A DNA stretch of 51,813 bases from an uncultured Erysipelotrichaceae bacterium (GTDB lineage: Bacteria > Bacillota_I > Bacilli_A > Erysipelotrichales > Erysipelotrichaceae): NCBI GenBank assembly GCA_944326095.1, contig CALVCO010000007.1, positions 1-51,813 on the forward strand, given 5' to 3'. The notes beneath the pieces are model-generated. The model saw nothing but the letters and a program-made list of their open reading frames with translations, was not told where the DNA came from and did no database searches. This document shows positions 20,168-28,432 of this stretch, one piece after another (position 1 is the first letter of the stretch; each line of letters starts with the position of its first letter). The position numbers were made by a program, and so were the translations under genes.

Positions 20168-20192
20168 GCTTAGCTAAATGCTAAGCTTTTTT
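20168..20192 (+). terminator. rho-independent terminator after darA
   Basis: GCTTAGC (20168-20174) and GCTAAGC (20180-20186) form a 7-bp stem followed by six T. Confidence 0.92.
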
Positions 20193-20432: not shown

Positions 20433-20493
20433 GCTTGTTTCATGTCAGAAAGTGATATTGAAAATACAAGTAACAATTGTTAATATCAAAGTA
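20433..20493 (+). promoter_or_regulatory. conserved promoter/operator element, copy 1
   Basis: This 61-base element is about 90% identical, without gaps, to copy 2 at 21397. It contains TTGAAA (20458-20463), a 17-bp spacer and TAATAT (20481-20486), with a conserved block ATGTCAGAAAGTGATA just upstream of the -35 box. It would drive the lipoprotein gene at 20583 with a leader of about 90 bases. Confidence 0.7.
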
Positions 20494-20582
20494 ACAACAT
20501 ATATCATTAAAAAAGATAAATTAATAATATTATAAAATTAAAACAAAATATATTCGCTATATTATAGAAAGGAGAAATGATT

Positions 20583-21380
20583 ATGAAAAAAATGTTGGTT
20601 GCTATTTTTACCCTAATGTTACTAGTGGGGTGTACAACAGAAAATGTAAATGTATCTAAAGAGATTGGTGATAACTTAGCTTCTTCTAATCCAAATATTT
20701 CAGGAAATTTACCAAAAGTATATATAAAGGATATTCTTGAATTTGATGAGTTTGATATAACAAGTGAGAGTTTTACGGATATTACAAAAGCAGATAATCA
20801 AGAATTGTTAGATGAAGATACTTATTATGCTCAATCAAAACAATTCACGGATTGGATTGTTCCGCAATATGATGAAATGATGCAAGAGATAACAAGCGCA
20901 AATTATAGTAAAATTGATTATATAAATGGGACAGATGGTTTATTAATGTTATTAGAAAATAAAGATAATGGTTATATGCTATATATTTATGATAATAACA
21001 GAATTAAAGTAGTTGATGGTGAAAATTCTCAATGTTATGTAGCGGATAAAGATCTAAGTTATACCAATGGATTATTAGATAATTTCTTAGAAGAAATAAG
21101 TAGTTTTATGACAAATCTTCGAAATGAGTATAATGAAGAAATAAATGAAAAGAATATGAATGCTCCAATTTGTGAAAACGATGGAGTACAAACTCAATAT
21201 TTAGAAATAACAATAGGAAATCCACATAGTTTATCAGAAGGATGTATACACCATACGTTTGGCACAGATAGAGTATGGTATCAAGACTACTTAACATATT
21301 ATCAATGCCCAGAATGTGGACAAAGGATTCAAGAAGAAGAGATAAGTATAGAAGTAGATAGAGAATGTTTTGGATATTAG
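20583..21380 (+). CDS. lipoprotein with a C-terminal five-Cys domain
   Basis: A type II signal peptide ends in the lipobox LLVGC (Cys 17). Residues about 18-180 are acidic and closely parallel the next lipoprotein (FDITSESFTDITKADNQELLD, DWIVPQYDEMMQEITSA, YINGTDGLLMLLENKDNGYMLYIYDNNRIKV). The last 70 residues form a separate domain: C-x23-C-IHHTFGTD-x12-C-PE-C-G-x15-C-FGY. The same spacing is found in the secreted peptide at 24227. The start at ATG 20583 is seven bases after GGAGA; the ATG at 20577 is too close. Known family: none recognised. Attached to the outer membrane face, it could be an immunity or receptor protein; this is inference. Confidence 0.82.
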   Translation: MKKMLVAIFTLMLLVGCTTENVNVSKEIGDNLASSNPNISGNLPKVYIKDILEFDEFDITSESFTDITKADNQELLDEDTYYAQSKQFTDWIVPQYDEMMQEITSANYSKIDYINGTDGLLMLLENKDNGYMLYIYDNNRIKVVDGENSQCYVADKDLSYTNGLLDNFLEEISSFMTNLRNEYNEEINEKNMNAPICENDGVQTQYLEITIGNPHSLSEGCIHHTFGTDRVWYQDYLTYYQCPECGQRIQEEEISIEVDRECFGY

Positions 21381-21396
21381 TTGCTTGATAAAATTT

Positions 21397-21457
21397 GCTT
21401 ATTTTATGTCCGAAAATGATATTGAAAATACAAGTAACGATTGTTAACATCAAAGTA
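21397..21457 (+). promoter_or_regulatory. conserved promoter/operator element, copy 2
   Basis: Aligned base for base with copy 1: TTGAAA (21422-21427), a 17-bp spacer and TAACAT (21445-21450), preceded by TATGTCCGAAAATGATA. It drives the mini-ORF at 21504 and the second lipoprotein. Confidence 0.7.
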
Positions 21458-21503
21458 CAAAGTAATATTAAATTAATCATATAATTTTAAGGAGAGTTGT
21501 ACT

Positions 21504-21557
21504 ATGATGGGCAGGTATAAAAACGGTGATAGTTTATTCCGTATAATTAGAAAATAG
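21504..21557 (+). CDS. upstream mini-ORF, 17-residue peptide
   Basis: The ORF encodes MMGRYKNGDSLFRIIRK and stops 16 bases before the second lipoprotein. A ribosome site AAGGAGA lies about nine bases upstream of the ATG. The first nine residues are identical to those of the mini-ORF at 24148, although the codons differ (GGC/GGT and GGT/GGA), which points to selection on the peptide. It may be a leader peptide, a signal or a conserved remnant. No function is assigned. Confidence 0.55.
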   Translation: MMGRYKNGDSLFRIIRK

Positions 21558-21573
21558 AAATGAGGTATGAACC

Positions 21574-22125
21574 ATGAAGAAATTTTTGTTTGTTTTATGT
21601 ATTCTAATGATTATGGTAGGTTGTAGTAAATCTAATAATGTATCATCTGAAATTAATAATAATTTATCTTCTAGTAATCCAAACATTTCTGCAAAAGGAG
21701 CTACAGTAGATGAAAGTGGTAATCAAGTTTTAAAAGAATTTCATATCACTAGTGATAGTTTTAATGATATTACTAAAGCTGATAATCCTGAATTATTAGA
21801 TGATGAAACTTACTATGAACAGACAAAGGAATATACAGAGTGGTTAGTTCCACAATATGATGAAATGATTGATGAGATTACTAGCGCTAAGTTCAAAGTG
21901 ATTGATTATATAGATGGTACAGATGGATTATTGTTGGTATTAGAAAATGAAGACAATGGTTACATGCTATACATCTATGATAATAATCGTGTTAAGATTA
22001 TCAATGGTAATGATACTAATTCTTATGAACTTGATGGCGATTTATCATATAGTTATTCATTATTAGATGGACTATACCAAAAAATTAGTGATTTTAATAC
22101 TAATTTAAGAGAAAAATCAAAATGA
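21574..22125 (+). CDS. lipoprotein, paralogue of the upstream lipoprotein
   Basis: The 183-residue protein has a signal peptide with lipobox MVGC (Cys 17). Its acidic domain is homologous to the N-terminal 180 residues of the protein at 20583 (FHITSDSFNDITKADNPELLDDETYYEQ, EWLVPQYDEMIDEITSA, DGTDGLLLVLENEDNGYMLYIYDNNRVKI). It lacks the five-Cys tail. The tandem pair therefore arose by duplication, with gain or loss of a tail domain. It lies downstream of promoter copy 2 and a mini-ORF. No known family was recognised. Confidence 0.82.
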   Translation: MKKFLFVLCILMIMVGCSKSNNVSSEINNNLSSSNPNISAKGATVDESGNQVLKEFHITSDSFNDITKADNPELLDDETYYEQTKEYTEWLVPQYDEMIDEITSAKFKVIDYIDGTDGLLLVLENEDNGYMLYIYDNNRVKIINGNDTNSYELDGDLSYSYSLLDGLYQKISDFNTNLREKSK

Positions 22126-22126
22126 G

Positions 22127-22501
22127 ATGAAGAAAATGAAAATTTATAAAAAATAATATTAACATCTATTATATTTTTGATGACAATAGTAAGTGTTAAC
22201 GCTTCTCAAAATAGACAGGATGTTACAGAAAGACGTGGGCTAGCATATTCAAACATGATAATAAAAATAAAATGTCCTGCAAATGAAGGACCTTATGCAG
22301 AAGTTACAAGAGGTAATTTTTCAACAAGTTCAAGTATTGTTGGGTCTTCATATTTTATGGATATTAAACAGTAATCCAGGATACTTCATTATTGCTGCAA
22401 GCTATAGTTTGTCTGATGGAACATCTTATGTACCATCAACTATGGGATATACAAATGGTTATACTTCATATGAGTATACTACAGCATGTCAAGGATGGTA
22501 A
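22127..22501 (+). pseudogene. frameshifted small secreted protein
   Basis: ATG 22127 begins a lysine-rich start (MKKMKIYKK) that stops at once. Adding one A to the six-A run at 22148-22153 restores a signal peptide (KKIILTSIIFLMTIVSVNA) and a mature region (SQNRQDVTERRGLAYSN, KIKCPANEGPYAEVTRG, SSSIVGSSYFMDI). A second shift near the AAA at 22366-22368 is needed to continue into NPGYFIIAASYSLSDGTSYV and the end TTACQGW. The intact product would be about 120 residues, with Cys near the end in a C-x-G-[WY] ending like the five-Cys proteins nearby. It starts one base after the lipoprotein stop, so it was the second gene of that operon. Family not recognised. Confidence 0.7.
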
Positions 22502-22541
22502 AGGCATATATCATGTAATCAAAATTTAAGAAATTTTAAAA

Positions 22542-22577
22542 GGTTAGAATGGATATGCACAACCATTCTAGCCTTTT
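22542..22577 (+). terminator. rho-independent terminator after the broken secreted-protein gene
   Basis: GGTTAGAATGG (22542-22552) pairs perfectly with CCATTCTAGCC (22563-22573), followed by TTTT. Confidence 0.9.
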
Positions 22578-22606
22578 AGTATATAATGGAAAAGGAGATA
22601 TAGAAG

Positions 22607-22807
22607 ATGAAAAAACTTTTTACTTTATTAACAATACTGTTGATTTGTGGAGCTATTAATGTACAAGCGGTTCAAGAAAATCCAATAGAAGCATGTGAAG
22701 CACAATCTGACGAAACAAAAGAATGTATGATTAATGAAGATGGAGAATGTGAATGTATATATAAAATTTCTTTGTATGGGAATAATCACCAAGGCGGTGA
22801 CGATTAA
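22607..22807 (+). CDS. small secreted Cys-rich peptide upstream of the regulator
   Basis: This 66-residue precursor has a clear signal peptide (MKKLFTLLTILLICGAINVQA) and an acidic mature part of about 45 residues with C-x9-C-x7-C-x-C and the tail YGNNHQGGDD. AAAGGAG lies 10 bases upstream of the start, and a TATAAT at 22582-22587 is a possible -10 box. The stop codon touches the TTG start of the regulator, so translation is coupled. An exported small peptide next to an HTH+TPR regulator recalls peptide-pheromone pairs, but those usually carry the peptide gene downstream and are shorter. Bacteriocin-like activity is another option. Confidence 0.72.
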   Translation: MKKLFTLLTILLICGAINVQAVQENPIEACEAQSDETKECMINEDGECECIYKISLYGNNHQGGDD

Positions 22808-24037
22808 TTGAATATCACACCAATAGAATATGCTTATTTTAAAAGAATTCGCAACGAAAACGATGATATTAGTGCTTTAGCGTTTAAAATAAATGTTAGT
22901 AAAGGTCTTTTGTATGATATTGAATCGGGAAGAAGAGCGTTGACAACGGAAGTATTTAAAAAAGTTATAAATTATTATGGAATAAAATATGATAGTTCCA
23001 GAGAGTTATATGATGAAGGATATAATTTAGTTTTAGAATTATTTAAATATACAGTAAAAATAGATAAGTCTGGTTTCTTTAAATTATATGAACAATTTGA
23101 AGAAAAAATAGATGAATATAAGCACTCTAAAGCCTTTATATTTGTGGATCTTATAAAATCGATGCGTGAAACTAAGCTTAAAAATTATAAAAGTGGAGAA
23201 GTATATCTTGAAAAATGCAAAGAGTATATTGATCAATATGACAATAATATAATCTTTATTTATGCCATACAATGGATGTTTACCAAAGAAATTGAAGATA
23301 ATGTTAAAGAATTAAGAAAAATACTTATAGGAACTTATAATAAATATTCATTAAATAATCTTGATAGTTATATATTAGGAATGCTTTATTATCAAATTGG
23401 TAGATTATTACAAATAGAAGAAGATTATTTTGAAGCCGATAAATATTTTGACGAAAGCATTAAATATTTTAAATTTAATGGATTGTTAAATCGTGAAATA
23501 CAAGCAAATATACAGAAAGCCATTAGTTATATGGAAATAAATCAATTTGAAAAAGCTGAAAAAATTTATTTGGAAATGTATAATAAAGCATTAGAAAATA
23601 ATTTTATTGGGCGTATTAAAGTTTGTTGCGATAATTTAACTGTATTGTACTTTGTGATAAATAAATTTGATAAAGCAGAAAAATTTTATCAATCTGCTAA
23701 AAAGAATGGTTCGACATTTTCGGATATTAATTTTTATCATGCATATATTGTCTATAAAACAAAGCCTTTAAAAGAGGCACGTAGTGAAATATCTCAATTA
23801 ATAAAAAATGAAAACAAAAAAAGAATATTATTATCTTTAAAATTCATTCAAGCGATGCTGAATAAAAATGATTCGAAAGTTGATGAGTATTACGAATCAG
23901 CGTTAGAAGAATTTAAATTAATTAATGCAAAAATAGATGATAAATTAGTAACTAAAATGATTATAGAATATTACCAAAATCGTAATAATGATAAATTTAA
24001 TAAATTGGTAAAGGAATATTTCGAAAAATATTATTGA
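22808..24037 (+). CDS. HTH + TPR transcriptional regulator, RRNPP-like
   Basis: The 409-residue protein has an N-terminal XRE-like helix-turn-helix (residues 4-60: EYAYFKRIRNENDDISALAFKINVSKGLLYDIESGRRALT) followed by repeated helical TPR units to the C-terminus. Examples are LGMLYYQIGRLLQIEEDYFEADKYFDESIKYF, NIQKAISYMEINQFEKAEKIYLEMY, and LTVLYFVINKFDKAEKFYQSA. This is the architecture of Rgg/PlcR/PrgX/AimR-type regulators that sense imported peptides. The TTG start directly abuts the stop of the Cys-rich peptide gene; no separate ribosome site is needed if coupled (GGCGGTGA lies upstream). It probably acts on the three repeated elements in this cassette, one of which begins at its own 3' end. 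Confidence 0.82.
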   Translation: MNITPIEYAYFKRIRNENDDISALAFKINVSKGLLYDIESGRRALTTEVFKKVINYYGIKYDSSRELYDEGYNLVLELFKYTVKIDKSGFFKLYEQFEEKIDEYKHSKAFIFVDLIKSMRETKLKNYKSGEVYLEKCKEYIDQYDNNIIFIYAIQWMFTKEIEDNVKELRKILIGTYNKYSLNNLDSYILGMLYYQIGRLLQIEEDYFEADKYFDESIKYFKFNGLLNREIQANIQKAISYMEINQFEKAEKIYLEMYNKALENNFIGRIKVCCDNLTVLYFVINKFDKAEKFYQSAKKNGSTFSDINFYHAYIVYKTKPLKEARSEISQLIKNENKKRILLSLKFIQAMLNKNDSKVDEYYESALEEFKLINAKIDDKLVTKMIIEYYQNRNNDKFNKLVKEYFEKYY

Positions 24038-24086
24038 TTTTATGTCCAAAAATATTATTGAAATTACTAGTAGGAATAATTATTAT
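24033..24086 (+). promoter_or_regulatory. conserved promoter/operator element, copy 3
   Basis: Aligned with copies 1 and 2 without gaps: a TTTTATGTCCAAAAAT block, then TTGAAA (24058-24063), a 17-bp spacer and TATTAT (24081-24086). It overlaps the last codons of the regulator gene and drives the mini-ORF and five-Cys peptide. Confidence 0.65.
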
Positions 24087-24147: not shown

Positions 24148-24180
24148 ATGATGGGTAGGTATAAAAACGGAGATGAATAA
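24148..24180 (+). CDS. upstream mini-ORF, 10-residue peptide
   Basis: It encodes MMGRYKNGDE, matching the first nine residues of the mini-ORF at 21504. GCGAGGT lies about nine bases before the ATG. It ends 46 bases before the secreted five-Cys peptide. The placement between a conserved promoter and a secreted gene is the same in both copies. Confidence 0.5.
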   Translation: MMGRYKNGDE

Positions 24181-24226
24181 TAATTTTAAGTTTTTTAAAT
24201 TTATAAAACAAGGAGGAAATATTTTT

Positions 24227-24538
24227 ATGCGTAAATTTAAAAAAATAATTATTGTAGTTGCTTGTTTATTGATGACTCCAGTTGCAACCTTAGCTGAAGG
24301 TATTGAACCAAGAGCGGCAGTTCATTCATGTGGTGGTATATTAACTGATACAACAGAATATGGCCCATGGGGTTTTGCTTATGAAGCACCTTGTGTTCAT
24401 AATCATCCTTATGGCACAGATGTATATCAAAAAAGAGATGTAATTGTTCGTAGAAGTTGTAATAAATGTGGCATGAATGAAATTATTAGTATAACTGAGG
24501 AAGTTATATATAAGGAATGCCATGGGTATGATTGGTAA
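24227..24538 (+). CDS. secreted five-Cys peptide precursor
   Basis: The 103-residue precursor has a signal peptide (MRKFKKIIIVVACLLMTPVATLA) and a mature part of about 78 residues. The pattern is C-x20-C-VHNHPYGTD-x12-C-NK-C-G-x15-C-HGY. This closely follows the C-terminal tail of the lipoprotein at 20583: the GTD, CxxCG and EC-x-GY elements are shared. The Cys and His residues could bind metal or form disulfides outside the cell. The start at 24227 is supported by AAGGAGG nine bases upstream; the longer frame from 24173 lacks a site. A terminator separates it from the ABC genes. I recall similar small secreted proteins in Clostridia without known function. It is the best candidate cargo or effector of this cassette. 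Confidence 0.8.
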   Translation: MRKFKKIIIVVACLLMTPVATLAEGIEPRAAVHSCGGILTDTTEYGPWGFAYEAPCVHNHPYGTDVYQKRDVIVRRSCNKCGMNEIISITEEVIYKECHGYDW

Positions 24539-24604: not shown

Positions 24605-26707
24605 ATGAAGCTAGTTGATGTTAGTAAAATATATCATAATAAAAGTAGTGAAGTTGTTGCTTTAGATAAAATAAATTTGTCTTTTGAAAATAAGGGTTTA
24701 ATAATTATTCAAGGGGCTAGTGGTTCGGGAAAAACTACCTTATTAAATATTTTAGCAGGCATTGATCATGATTATGATGGTGTTGTAGATGGCTTGTATG
24801 ATTCATCATATTTGATGCAAAATGTAGCTCTATTTGAGAATATGAGTGTATATGATAATCTGTTGATAGTTTGTAATAGACATAAGACTATAGATAAGTA
24901 TCTTGCTAAATTTAATCTTGATGAAGTTAAAAATCATAAAGTTAAGAAATGTTCAAATGGGCAAAAGAAAAGAGTTCAATTGTTGTGTGGTTTTTTAAAT
25001 AATAAGCAGATGATGCTTTGTGATGAACCTACAGCGGCACTTGATTATGAAAATGCTGAAGAAGTAATGATGATGTTAAAACAGATTGCTAAACAGAAAT
25101 TAGTAATTGTTGTTACACATGATATTGCTTTGAGTGAAAAATATGCAGATAGGATTATTAAAATTGAAAAAGGCATAATTGTTCGGGATGAAATAATTAA
25201 TGATACTTCTAAAATTATTGTTAAAAATAATAAAAAAATTAGAAGTTTAGTAGCTACCATTAAATTGGTTATAAAAGATTTATTGTCTAGACCTATTAAT
25301 TATTTATTGCTTAGTGTTTTTATTTTTATAGGTGGAATGTGTTTATATGTAGTAACTAATTTATTTTTTAGCTTGAATGCTCAGCTTGATTATAATGATA
25401 GTTTTGAAAATGGTAATAATATAATTGTTGAATATAATCAAGAAGAAAAATTTGTGGATATTACTAATATGGAATCAAATATGATAAATCTTGATGGTAG
25501 AGTATATGTTAATTATGATTATATTAGTTACAATAATCTGCAACATTTACTTGATAATAATCCCGAAATAATTGCATATGAAGCCAATGTTGAAACATTT
25601 GATTATGCAGTTTATAATGATGGCTTTGATAAAGATCAAGGCGTTTTTAAGTTTATTTTGGATGAAATTCCTTCTGAGCAAAAGGATCAATATATAGAAA
25701 AATATTCTGGTTCAATTAGTAATTATTTGTATGATATTAGCTTTAGGCCTCGTCATTATCCATTTATTTCATCACAAATTGTTTATAATGGAAGTGAGTA
25801 TGAAAATGAATTAACTGCTTTTGATGAGTTAGATAAAGATTATTTAGCTAATAGTGTTAATGTTTTTTATTTGCGAAATTATGATGATATACCATTACTT
25901 TATGGTTCATATGTTGAAGGTCCTACAGATATAATTATTGATCAAAAAGTAGCTAATATTGTTATGGATGAATATGATATTGATAACATTGAAGATTTGC
26001 TTGATATGAATATTGATTTAAAACAGAAAACATATGCTTTTGTTAATATACTTTATGAACGTTTGAATTTACCTAGTTATGATAGTTTTACCTATACAAT
26101 TAAAGGGATTACTAGTGTTAATAATGATGAATTAGCTATGATATTTATATATAATGATATAGTTAACGATCAATTGTTAGCTACGCATTTAGTAGGTACA
26201 GATAATTTGCAATTCCAAAATGTTCGTTTTATTTTAGATCCAAATTGTGATATAGAAAATTTAGTTATTAAAATTAATGATGAACTTGGTTTGGCTAATA
26301 CATCATTTGTATCTTTAGCAGATTTGAATTCCCAAAGTAATGCTTTAAATCGACATAATGAAGATATGTTAATGTATTTAGGAATGATATTTTTAGGTAT
26401 TATTGGTTTGTTAGTATTATTCTATTTATTACAAATGCGAACTAATAAAAAAGAAGCTAGATTAATTGTAAGCTATGATTATAATTTTAACTTTTATATA
26501 GTCATTAAGAATGTTATTCTAGGACTATTAGGGCTATTAATAATGCTTGTATTATCACATTATATTTTAGTTTATATTAATGAATTAGGAATTCAATATG
26601 GTTATAGTTATTTAATGGAAGATAATAACTTATTTATCTTATTAAGCTGGTTGATAATGTTAATCATTGCAATATTAGTTAATAGATTGTTGGTGCATAG
26701 CAAATGA
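24605..26707 (+). CDS. ABC transporter, fused ATPase and MacB/FtsX-type permease (1)
   Basis: Residues 1-205 form an ABC ATPase: Walker A QGASGSGKTTLLN, signature CSNGQKKRVQLL (degenerate, LSGGQ expected), Walker B MMLCDEPTAALD and switch His in VVTHD. A transmembrane helix at about 231-255 is followed by a large extracellular domain (256-585) and three C-terminal helices (about 587-610, 635-660, 673-697), the MacB/FtsX topology. Such proteins pair with small secreted peptides in lactococcin 972-type bacteriocin systems and act in export or self-protection. It overlaps the second ABC gene by four bases (ATGA). The ribosome site is AAGGTGGTG. There is no C39 peptidase domain. Confidence 0.85.
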   Translation: MKLVDVSKIYHNKSSEVVALDKINLSFENKGLIIIQGASGSGKTTLLNILAGIDHDYDGVVDGLYDSSYLMQNVALFENMSVYDNLLIVCNRHKTIDKYLAKFNLDEVKNHKVKKCSNGQKKRVQLLCGFLNNKQMMLCDEPTAALDYENAEEVMMMLKQIAKQKLVIVVTHDIALSEKYADRIIKIEKGIIVRDEIINDTSKIIVKNNKKIRSLVATIKLVIKDLLSRPINYLLLSVFIFIGGMCLYVVTNLFFSLNAQLDYNDSFENGNNIIVEYNQEEKFVDITNMESNMINLDGRVYVNYDYISYNNLQHLLDNNPEIIAYEANVETFDYAVYNDGFDKDQGVFKFILDEIPSEQKDQYIEKYSGSISNYLYDISFRPRHYPFISSQIVYNGSEYENELTAFDELDKDYLANSVNVFYLRNYDDIPLLYGSYVEGPTDIIIDQKVANIVMDEYDIDNIEDLLDMNIDLKQKTYAFVNILYERLNLPSYDSFTYTIKGITSVNNDELAMIFIYNDIVNDQLLATHLVGTDNLQFQNVRFILDPNCDIENLVIKINDELGLANTSFVSLADLNSQSNALNRHNEDMLMYLGMIFLGIIGLLVLFYLLQMRTNKKEARLIVSYDYNFNFYIVIKNVILGLLGLLIMLVLSHYILVYINELGIQYGYSYLMEDNNLFILLSWLIMLIIAILVNRLLVHSK

Positions 26708-28380
26708 TTTTAATTAAAGATTTATGTAAAAGTTTTGGCAATCAACTTATTTTTAAAAATGTCGATTTCTGTATAAATAAATGTGGATTATATGGAATAG
26801 TTGGAAGTAGTGGTAGTGGGAAGTCTACTTTATTAAATATAATTTTTAAAAATGAGGCTTTTAATAGTGGTGAAGTCATTGTTGATGGAACAATGGCGAT
26901 GATATATCAAAATTATGAACTTATTGATGAACTTAATGTTTTAAGTAATATTACTTTATATCGTAAAAATTTATATAATCTTAAAAGTATTATTAATGAT
27001 TTAGGATTAAAACCAATGTTACATCATTATCCTAAAGAATTATCAGGGGGACAGGCGCAAAGAGTTGGCATAGCTAGAGCTTTAGTGTGTAATCCAGATA
27101 TAATTTTATGCGATGAGCCATGTGAATCATTGGATATTGATAATAAGATTATTGTGATGGATATGTTAAAAAAACTATCACAAGATAAAATTGTTATAAT
27201 GGTTAGTCATGATAGACAAATTATAGATGAATATTGTGATGTTATATATACAATTGAAAATTATAATATAAAAGAAGATATTCGAAATAATAATTTAGAA
27301 ATGTTTATTCCTAAAAATATGCCACTTGTCAAAGTTGATGCGAAAAGGATTGTTAGAAAAACATTGCAGAAAAAGAATATTATTTTTAGTATTTGTATAT
27401 CTTTGATGATGGTTATTTTAGGAATATTAAATATTATTAGTAAAGATTATTTTGCGCTTAATGAGTCAAGAGATGTTTTGAATATTAATATGTTATATGT
27501 TGATGCTGATGCTTCTTATCTTCTTGAAGAAAATGGCATTGCTTTAGCTTTGAGGCCGATAATTTCCTTTGAAGAAATGAGATATAATGATAAAAATTAT
27601 GCGATAAATATTATCCCCTATATTGATAATGATTTATATCCTATGCCAGCAGCTAATATTTTATATATTAATAATTATTTAGCAGATATGGTTAATTTAA
27701 CAGAAGGTTCGCAAGTTATACTTAATTATAAGAGTGTGAATGGAAACTTTGAAGAGATGAATTATAGTGTCGGGAAAATAATTCATGAAGATTGTACGAT
27801 TCCTCAGGCTTACTATAATCTTGATGTAATATTAGGTGAATATGATAATATTCCTATAAATGATGAAGGTGCGACTTTTTTAGATTATTTCAATTCCCAA
27901 GCTACTCGCTATCAAGTGAATGTTGGATATGATAATATTGAAAATAATTATCGAAAATATGGTGATATTGCAGGAATTGATTTTTATAATTTAGTATATG
28001 ATGAAAGAATAGATAATTATACTAAACAAAGGCCAATAAAATTAATGTTTGATATAGCTAGTTATTGTATATATGGCATAATAGTATTAATAGCAATTTT
28101 ATTTAATTATCGTACTAATAATAAACAATTAAGATGTTATGGATTACTAGTTAATTTTGGTAATGAAATAAAAGATATAAAGAAAGAACATTTAAAATAT
28201 AAAATAATTAGTTTTTCATTAATTTATCTTATTTTAAATGTTTGGTTATTTATTTCTTTAAATATACTAGTGATTATAGAAATAATATTATTATTGCTTG
28301 TTTATATTTTTACTTGTCAATTGGGTATGAAAAAATTTAGCAATGATAAAATTAATATCATATTAAAGACTAGTGATTAG
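26704..28380 (+). CDS. ABC transporter, fused ATPase and MacB/FtsX-type permease (2)
   Basis: The 558-residue protein repeats the layout of its upstream partner. The ATPase (1-205) has Walker A GSSGSGKSTLLN, a canonical LSGGQAQRVGIARAL signature, Walker B IILCDEPCESLD and VSHD. One helix follows at about 223-245, an extracellular domain at 246-440, and three helices after 442. With the upstream protein it probably forms a heterodimer in which one nucleotide site (using the canonical signature here) is active and the other degenerate. The ectodomain is about 130 residues shorter than in the partner. Four-base overlap indicates coupled translation. A terminator closes the operon. Confidence 0.85.
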   Translation: MILIKDLCKSFGNQLIFKNVDFCINKCGLYGIVGSSGSGKSTLLNIIFKNEAFNSGEVIVDGTMAMIYQNYELIDELNVLSNITLYRKNLYNLKSIINDLGLKPMLHHYPKELSGGQAQRVGIARALVCNPDIILCDEPCESLDIDNKIIVMDMLKKLSQDKIVIMVSHDRQIIDEYCDVIYTIENYNIKEDIRNNNLEMFIPKNMPLVKVDAKRIVRKTLQKKNIIFSICISLMMVILGILNIISKDYFALNESRDVLNINMLYVDADASYLLEENGIALALRPIISFEEMRYNDKNYAINIIPYIDNDLYPMPAANILYINNYLADMVNLTEGSQVILNYKSVNGNFEEMNYSVGKIIHEDCTIPQAYYNLDVILGEYDNIPINDEGATFLDYFNSQATRYQVNVGYDNIENNYRKYGDIAGIDFYNLVYDERIDNYTKQRPIKLMFDIASYCIYGIIVLIAILFNYRTNNKQLRCYGLLVNFGNEIKDIKKEHLKYKIISFSLIYLILNVWLFISLNILVIIEIILLLLVYIFTCQLGMKKFSNDKINIILKTSD

Positions 28381-28405: not shown

Positions 28406-28432
28406 GGTGCAAGGATTTCCTTGTGCCTTTTT
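28406..28432 (+). terminator. rho-independent terminator closing the peptide/ABC cassette
   Basis: GGTGCAAGGA (28406-28415) pairs with TCCTTGTGCC (28418-28427, one G-U), followed by TTTTT. Confidence 0.9.

Follow-up and report, generated by a model that had tools for sequence, protein, structure and literature searches.

The window analysed here, a 51,813-nucleotide (nt) stretch of the genome of an uncultured Erysipelotrichaceae bacterium, carried three copies of one promoter/operator element around a regulator gene, and these copies are probably the target promoters of a single peptide-signalling module of the RRNPPA type. The locus lies on the plus strand and was bounded upstream by a predicted intrinsic terminator (20168..20186). 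Copy 1 of the element (20439..20486) consisted of a block (20439-20457), a -35 box TTGAAA (20458-20463), a 17-nt spacer and an extended -10 box TAATAT (20481-20486), and was followed by the gene for lipoprotein A (20577..21380; 267 amino acids (aa)), a paralogue of the product of the gene at 21574 with an extra C-terminal Cys/His segment. Copy 2 (21403..21450) had its block at 21403-21421, its -35 box at 21422-21427 and an extended -10 box TAACAT at 21445-21450. The first open reading frame (ORF) after it was a tiny one encoding MMGRYKNGDSLFRIIRK (21504..21557), followed by the gene for lipoprotein B (21574..22125; 183 aa) and by what is left of a gene for a small secreted protein (22150..22501, by tblastn), disrupted here by a frameshift but still open in G004, a near-identical relative. 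A strong hairpin (22536..22579; 17 bp stem, -21 kcal/mol, z -4.6) stood between the copy-2 operon and the gene for a secreted Cys-rich propeptide of 66 aa (22607..22807), a candidate pheromone precursor, whose stop codon abuts the TTG start of the RRNPPA-like regulator gene (22808..24037; 409 aa, HTH_3 plus TPR). Copy 3 (24039..24086; block 24039-24057, -35 box 24058-24063, -10 box TATTAT 24081-24086) started right past the regulator stop codon and preceded a second tiny ORF, MMGRYKNGDE (24148..24180), a secreted Cys/His protein of 106 aa (24218..24538), and two ATP-binding cassette (ABC) ATPase-permease fusions of 700 aa (24605..26707) and 558 aa (26704..28380). A second predicted intrinsic terminator (28406..28427) marked the downstream end of the locus.

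The original prediction described three ungapped copies of the element on one strand, and this was confirmed, with 61-nt alignments beginning at 20433, 21397 and 24033. Copies 1 and 2 were identical at 55 of 61 positions, as had been estimated; the core said to be common to copy 3 was found there with 22 of 25 bases as in copy 2; a promoter-site scan recovered the TTGAAA-N17-TAATAT/TAACAT/TATTAT boxes; and the regulator gene at 22808 lay between copies 2 and 3 as described. The propeptide gene beside the regulator, the tandem duplication and the tiny ORFs were not part of that prediction. Over the full 61 nt, copy 3 shared 41 bases with copy 1 and 43 with copy 2, which were its two best matches in the entire window, the next being a chance match of 36/61. 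With at most 3 mismatches tolerated, TTTATGTCCNNAAATNNTATTGAAANTAC matched the window exactly three times and did not occur in 100 dinucleotide shuffles. A TG extending the -10 box was present in copies 1 and 2. In the corresponding locus of G004 all three copies were kept, with the block partly invariant, and the -35 box TTGAAA was unchanged in 6/6 copies across the window and this relative. Consensus sigma-70-like promoter sites were no more frequent than expected in this AT-rich DNA (75 found vs 84 expected), and the evidence for the element is therefore its repetition rather than its boxes.

Part of this repetition had a simple origin. Copies 1 and 2 and the lipoprotein gene downstream of each lie in a tandem duplication (73% identity over 300 nt of coding sequence, spacing 988), so that only copy 3 stands in an independent context; the 90% agreement between copies 1 and 2 is consequently weak by itself, and the weight falls on copy 3 and on conservation in G004. 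The duplication, with its similar spacing, is also what would favour reading copies 1 and 2 as mere leftovers from the doubling of a unit of promoter and lipoprotein gene, and copy 3 as a generic promoter, with no operator specific to the regulator. We consider this very unlikely, as copy 3 retains the core of copy 2 in front of an unrelated gene, the block stood at no other promoter in the genome, and the same lipoprotein gene family was found with another block beside another regulator clade. The genome-wide search for the block that had been proposed earlier returned exactly 3 matches to TTTATGTCCNNAAATNNTATTGAAANTAC (up to 3 mismatches) in 1.61 Mb, all at this locus, while a reversed control returned 0. 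A dispersed intergenic repeat, the alternative raised with the original prediction, was ruled out by this confinement.

The second block belonged to a separate clade of regulators and read GGTTGnnTTn4TCTTGyrAAA, followed by a -10 box of the type TGCTAGTATAT; it occupied the same place relative to the -35 and extended -10 boxes as the block of the window. It matched 14 times in four genomes of the genus, with 1 match in the reversed control. At two loci (L035 and L032) it preceded the target operon and also the propeptide-regulator operon, indicating autoregulation, and at a third (L045) two tandem copies lay just downstream of the regulator gene, the second preceding a lipoprotein of the window's family. 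This lipoprotein family thus carried the ATGTCC block here and the GGTTG block at L038, L045 and L111, in genomes with regulators of the other clade. One family with two blocks indicated that the block follows the regulator and not the gene, as an operator should. Block and regulator clade co-segregated: on a maximum-likelihood regulator tree in which few rows were labelled, a branch with full support separated the two blocks. The regulator of L036 sat on a long branch that is probably artefactual, and no claim draws on this protein. These comparisons lent support to the reading of the block ahead of the -35 box as the putative operator cognate to the 22808 regulator.

The regulator itself contained an HTH_3 domain (PF01381; E 3.4e-6, over the gathering score), with weak TPR matches. 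An AlphaFold (AF2) model built from 11 homologues was nearly all-helical and had high scores (predicted local distance difference test (pLDDT) 95.3, predicted TM-score (pTM) 0.88). The best solved relatives of this model in Foldseek were NprR, phage Rap proteins, RapI, RapF and AimR, with E values from 5.5e-7 and TM-scores of at most 0.65. A PDB sequence-profile search returned no RRNPPA chain at E<0.1 and gave no membership of the NprR subfamily at sequence level, and the similarity to NprR and the others is therefore one of fold only. The N-terminal XRE-type helix-turn-helix (HTH), the C-terminal geometry of a TPR superhelix and the adjoining propeptide ORF are traits of RRNPPA systems, and by modelled fold and architecture the regulator is an RRNPPA protein of a distant branch. 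Its ortholog in G004 was 95% identical, and homologues at 30-42% identity occurred, several per genome, in this genome (G000) and in G001, G003 and G005. Outside the genus, the sampled genomes gave only very weak matches; the named records with homologues were metagenome-assembled genomes of uncultured Erysipelotrichaceae or Firmicutes, and viral contigs held no relative. One genome of the genus, G002, was without regulator, propeptide and tiny ORF. At L034 (G001:C18, 10524-14561) three consecutive regulator paralogues were found, with a propeptide before the third only and with no recognisable promoter block or tiny ORF. A literature search found no paper linking RRNPP with Erysipelotrichaceae.

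The propeptide consisted of an N-terminal signal-like stretch (the export signal was judged by eye), a conserved segment ACEA-S-E--C-IN-DGECEC, and a variable Gly/Asp-rich tail ending in ...ISLYGNNHQGGDD. Propeptide and receptor were paired, as the same kind of Cys-rich ORF preceded most of the paralogous regulators examined. A family-wide profile search found the propeptide at E<1e-24 in five genomes of the genus and elsewhere only at E>1e-4. The C-terminal tail was its most variable part and was alike within receptor clades, as a pheromone source would be, and it is the likely candidate for the pheromone.

We propose that the propeptide would be exported and processed to yield a pheromone from its C-terminal tail, and that the re-imported peptide would bind the TPR domain of the regulator. 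The regulator would then attach through its HTH domain to the TTTATGTCC...AAAAT block next to the -35 box and bring RNA polymerase to three promoters that are otherwise weak. Lipoprotein A would be driven from copy 1; copy 2 would drive the tiny ORF and lipoprotein B and perhaps, via read-through past the hairpin, the pheromone-regulator pair; copy 3 would drive the second tiny ORF, the secreted Cys/His protein and the two ABC transporters. Read-through from copy 2 may thus provide positive feedback. The block spans about -54 to -36 relative to the expected start. As it adjoins the -35 box and none of the -10 boxes is perfect, the simplest reading has the receptor, with its peptide bound, recruiting polymerase. 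Binding of the block by the regulator, its activating and not repressing role, the identity of the pheromone, read-through and the role of the tiny peptide are inferred. Of the earlier suggestion that an activator occupies the block, the operator stood up by comparison, and the activating role stays a conditional part of the model.

The same position of the block could also be read as that of a repressor's operator, the pheromone lifting repression, since a protein bound against the -35 box could also block access of polymerase. Repressors are common among XRE-type HTH regulators, and in PrgX and Rgg3 systems the regulator represses and the pheromone relieves repression. The conserved part, however, runs upstream of the -35 box and not over the -10 box or the start, and the non-consensus -10 boxes (TAATAT, TAACAT) suit dependence on an activator. 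The occurrence of a block before two propeptide-regulator operons fits positive feedback, though it would fit autorepression equally. Repression therefore appears rather unlikely, if less so than the duplication scenario above. Several observations weigh against the proposed module itself. The block lacks the clear dyad that one might look for in the site of a dimeric XRE regulator, and no copy stands directly before the window's own pheromone-regulator operon. The ATGTCC block comes from one regulator lineage only (the window and G004), and 38/500 shuffles did equally well in the tree test with its few labelled rows. The closest regulators, at 40% identity (L034 and L042), had no recognised block.

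The tiny ORFs after copies 2 and 3 each stood behind a Shine-Dalgarno-like sequence and shared the pattern M-x-[A/G]-R-Y-K-N-G-D. A codon-degenerate search found RYKNG[D/E] eight times in this genome and detected it in 5/6 genomes of the genus. When a start codon was required, the tiny ORF was found in 11/273 genomes of the family, in four genera, with 0 reversed-control matches across the 273; in a class-wide sample, matches occurred in this family only. The loci were the window, L030, L031, L033, L035, L037, L038 and L101-L111. A plain DNA search allowing 3 mismatches was run to avoid the bias of the codon-degenerate pattern. Of the 19 differences in RYKNGD codons, counted by hand from its match list with one orthologous repeat excluded, 17 were synonymous and the other two changed D to E, against 18% synonymous by chance. 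This excess corresponds to P ~3e-11 if the differences are independent, which is optimistic given shared ancestry, and it indicated that translation of the tiny peptide, and selection on it, are very probable.

Where the contig extended far enough, the tiny ORF was nearly always followed by a gene for a protein with a signal peptide, and often by ABC transporters as well. A full operon was present at L104 in another genus, with the tiny ORF, a 110-aa Cys/His secreted protein and two ABC genes in the order of the copy-3 operon; the first two proteins were 35% (the secreted protein at 24218..24538) and 27% identical to their counterparts. At L033 (G000:C43, 5819-6251, minus strand) RYKNGD occurred in tandem copies, the second running in frame into a lipoprotein (VVSRYKNGDRLILKFFCILLLILLPAC...), as also at L112; the L033 contig held no regulator, and a consensus-like sigma-70 promoter lay upstream. 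At L102 (143-334 and 432-1088), which belongs to another genus, the tiny ORF was directly preceded by a secreted peptide of 63 aa that contains Cys, and at L102 and L106 the tiny ORF was followed by genes for a secreted C39-like peptidase and FtsX-type ABC proteins. At L103 (7864-9117), again in another genus, a divergent 417-aa HTH-like regulator with no Pfam match faced the tiny-ORF operon and is possibly another type of receptor controlling the same kind of operon.

Several roles for the tiny ORF were considered and set aside. A terminator or attenuator after the tiny ORF did not fit, as the window had short gaps to the next gene (16 and ~37 nt) and no terminator was predicted in them. A classical -1 slippery heptamer was rejected because the frame reads T AAA AAC and one copy has AAG AAC, and a macrolide-type arrest motif (R-x-K) would leave the conserved N-G-D after it unexplained. 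The locus matched no known RNA family in Rfam, and the 5' leaders thus correspond to no riboswitch described so far. The tiny peptide, rather than the Cys-rich propeptide, might be the signal: it has ~10 residues and no leader, is conserved at the peptide level and lies near most receptors examined, and leaderless RRNPPA signals are known in Firmicutes (PMC10518010). One and the same RYKNGD core beside receptors of different clades would nevertheless confer no specificity; the core also occurs in other genera with no nearby receptor of this family, and the tiny ORF comes after the receptor and not before it. We regard such a signal as improbable. We lean slightly towards RYKNGD being a new class of ultra-short peptide, encoded by the shared first gene of pheromone-controlled secretion operons in Erysipelotrichaceae, that works either in trans, as a signal that is exported or sensed, or in nascent form by controlling translation of the next secreted gene. 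The RYKNGD motif was unmentioned in the literature searched.

The secreted proteins of the locus had no convincing family match. The C-terminus of lipoprotein A (20577-21380) resembled the 24218-24538 protein (C..GC.HH..GTD....C..CG....EC.GY), which suggests that lipoprotein A may be a fusion of two target products. For both ATPases the best family was TIGR03608 (lactococcin 972-type ABC), at 118.9 and 137.5 bits, below its curated cut-off of 254.85.

These findings outline a predicted family of peptide-signalling systems in one genus of gut Erysipelotrichaceae, with receptor-propeptide pairs running in parallel, several to a genome. As these pairs come with recognisable putative operators, their regulon and specificity are directly testable with synthetic peptides. 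They also bring to light a conserved, previously undescribed peptide of ~10 residues, which ordinary gene calling likely overlooks because of its small size.

Read as a peptide-signalling module of the RRNPPA type together with the promoters it controls, as the comparisons above support well, the locus would be of a kind already known. In the streptococcal Rgg/SHP and ComR/ComS systems, receptor-controlled promoters carry a conserved block upstream of a weak core, and the targets include secreted peptides and exporters. The locus described here resembled them in its conserved block upstream of weak core promoters and in its putative secreted-peptide and exporter targets; it differed in the unrelated sequence of the block, the ordinary Sec-type signal of the propeptide and the RYKNGD tiny ORF heading target operons. 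Like lactococcin 972-type loci (TIGR03608), it placed small secreted proteins before MacB/FtsX-like ABC genes, whereas its ABC scores fell under the cut-off and its secreted proteins had no convincing family match. Leaderless communication peptides (LCP/RopB; PMC10518010) are likewise very short leaderless ORFs in RRNPPA receptor loci, whereas RYKNGD is a hydrophilic, constant core common to many receptors and heads target operons. NprR/NprX and Rap/Phr belong to RRNPPA clan B, with nine-TPR receptors (PMC12700828). Fold alignments with NprR gave 17-19% identity, and unlike in NprR/NprX and Rap/Phr the propeptide here precedes the receptor and is Cys-rich, and receptor and propeptide were found in one Erysipelotrichaceae genus only. 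The regulator nevertheless shared with NprR and Rap a long TPR superhelix in the model, with NprR the HTH domain that Rap lacks, and with both the closest solved folds and an exported propeptide gene beside the receptor.

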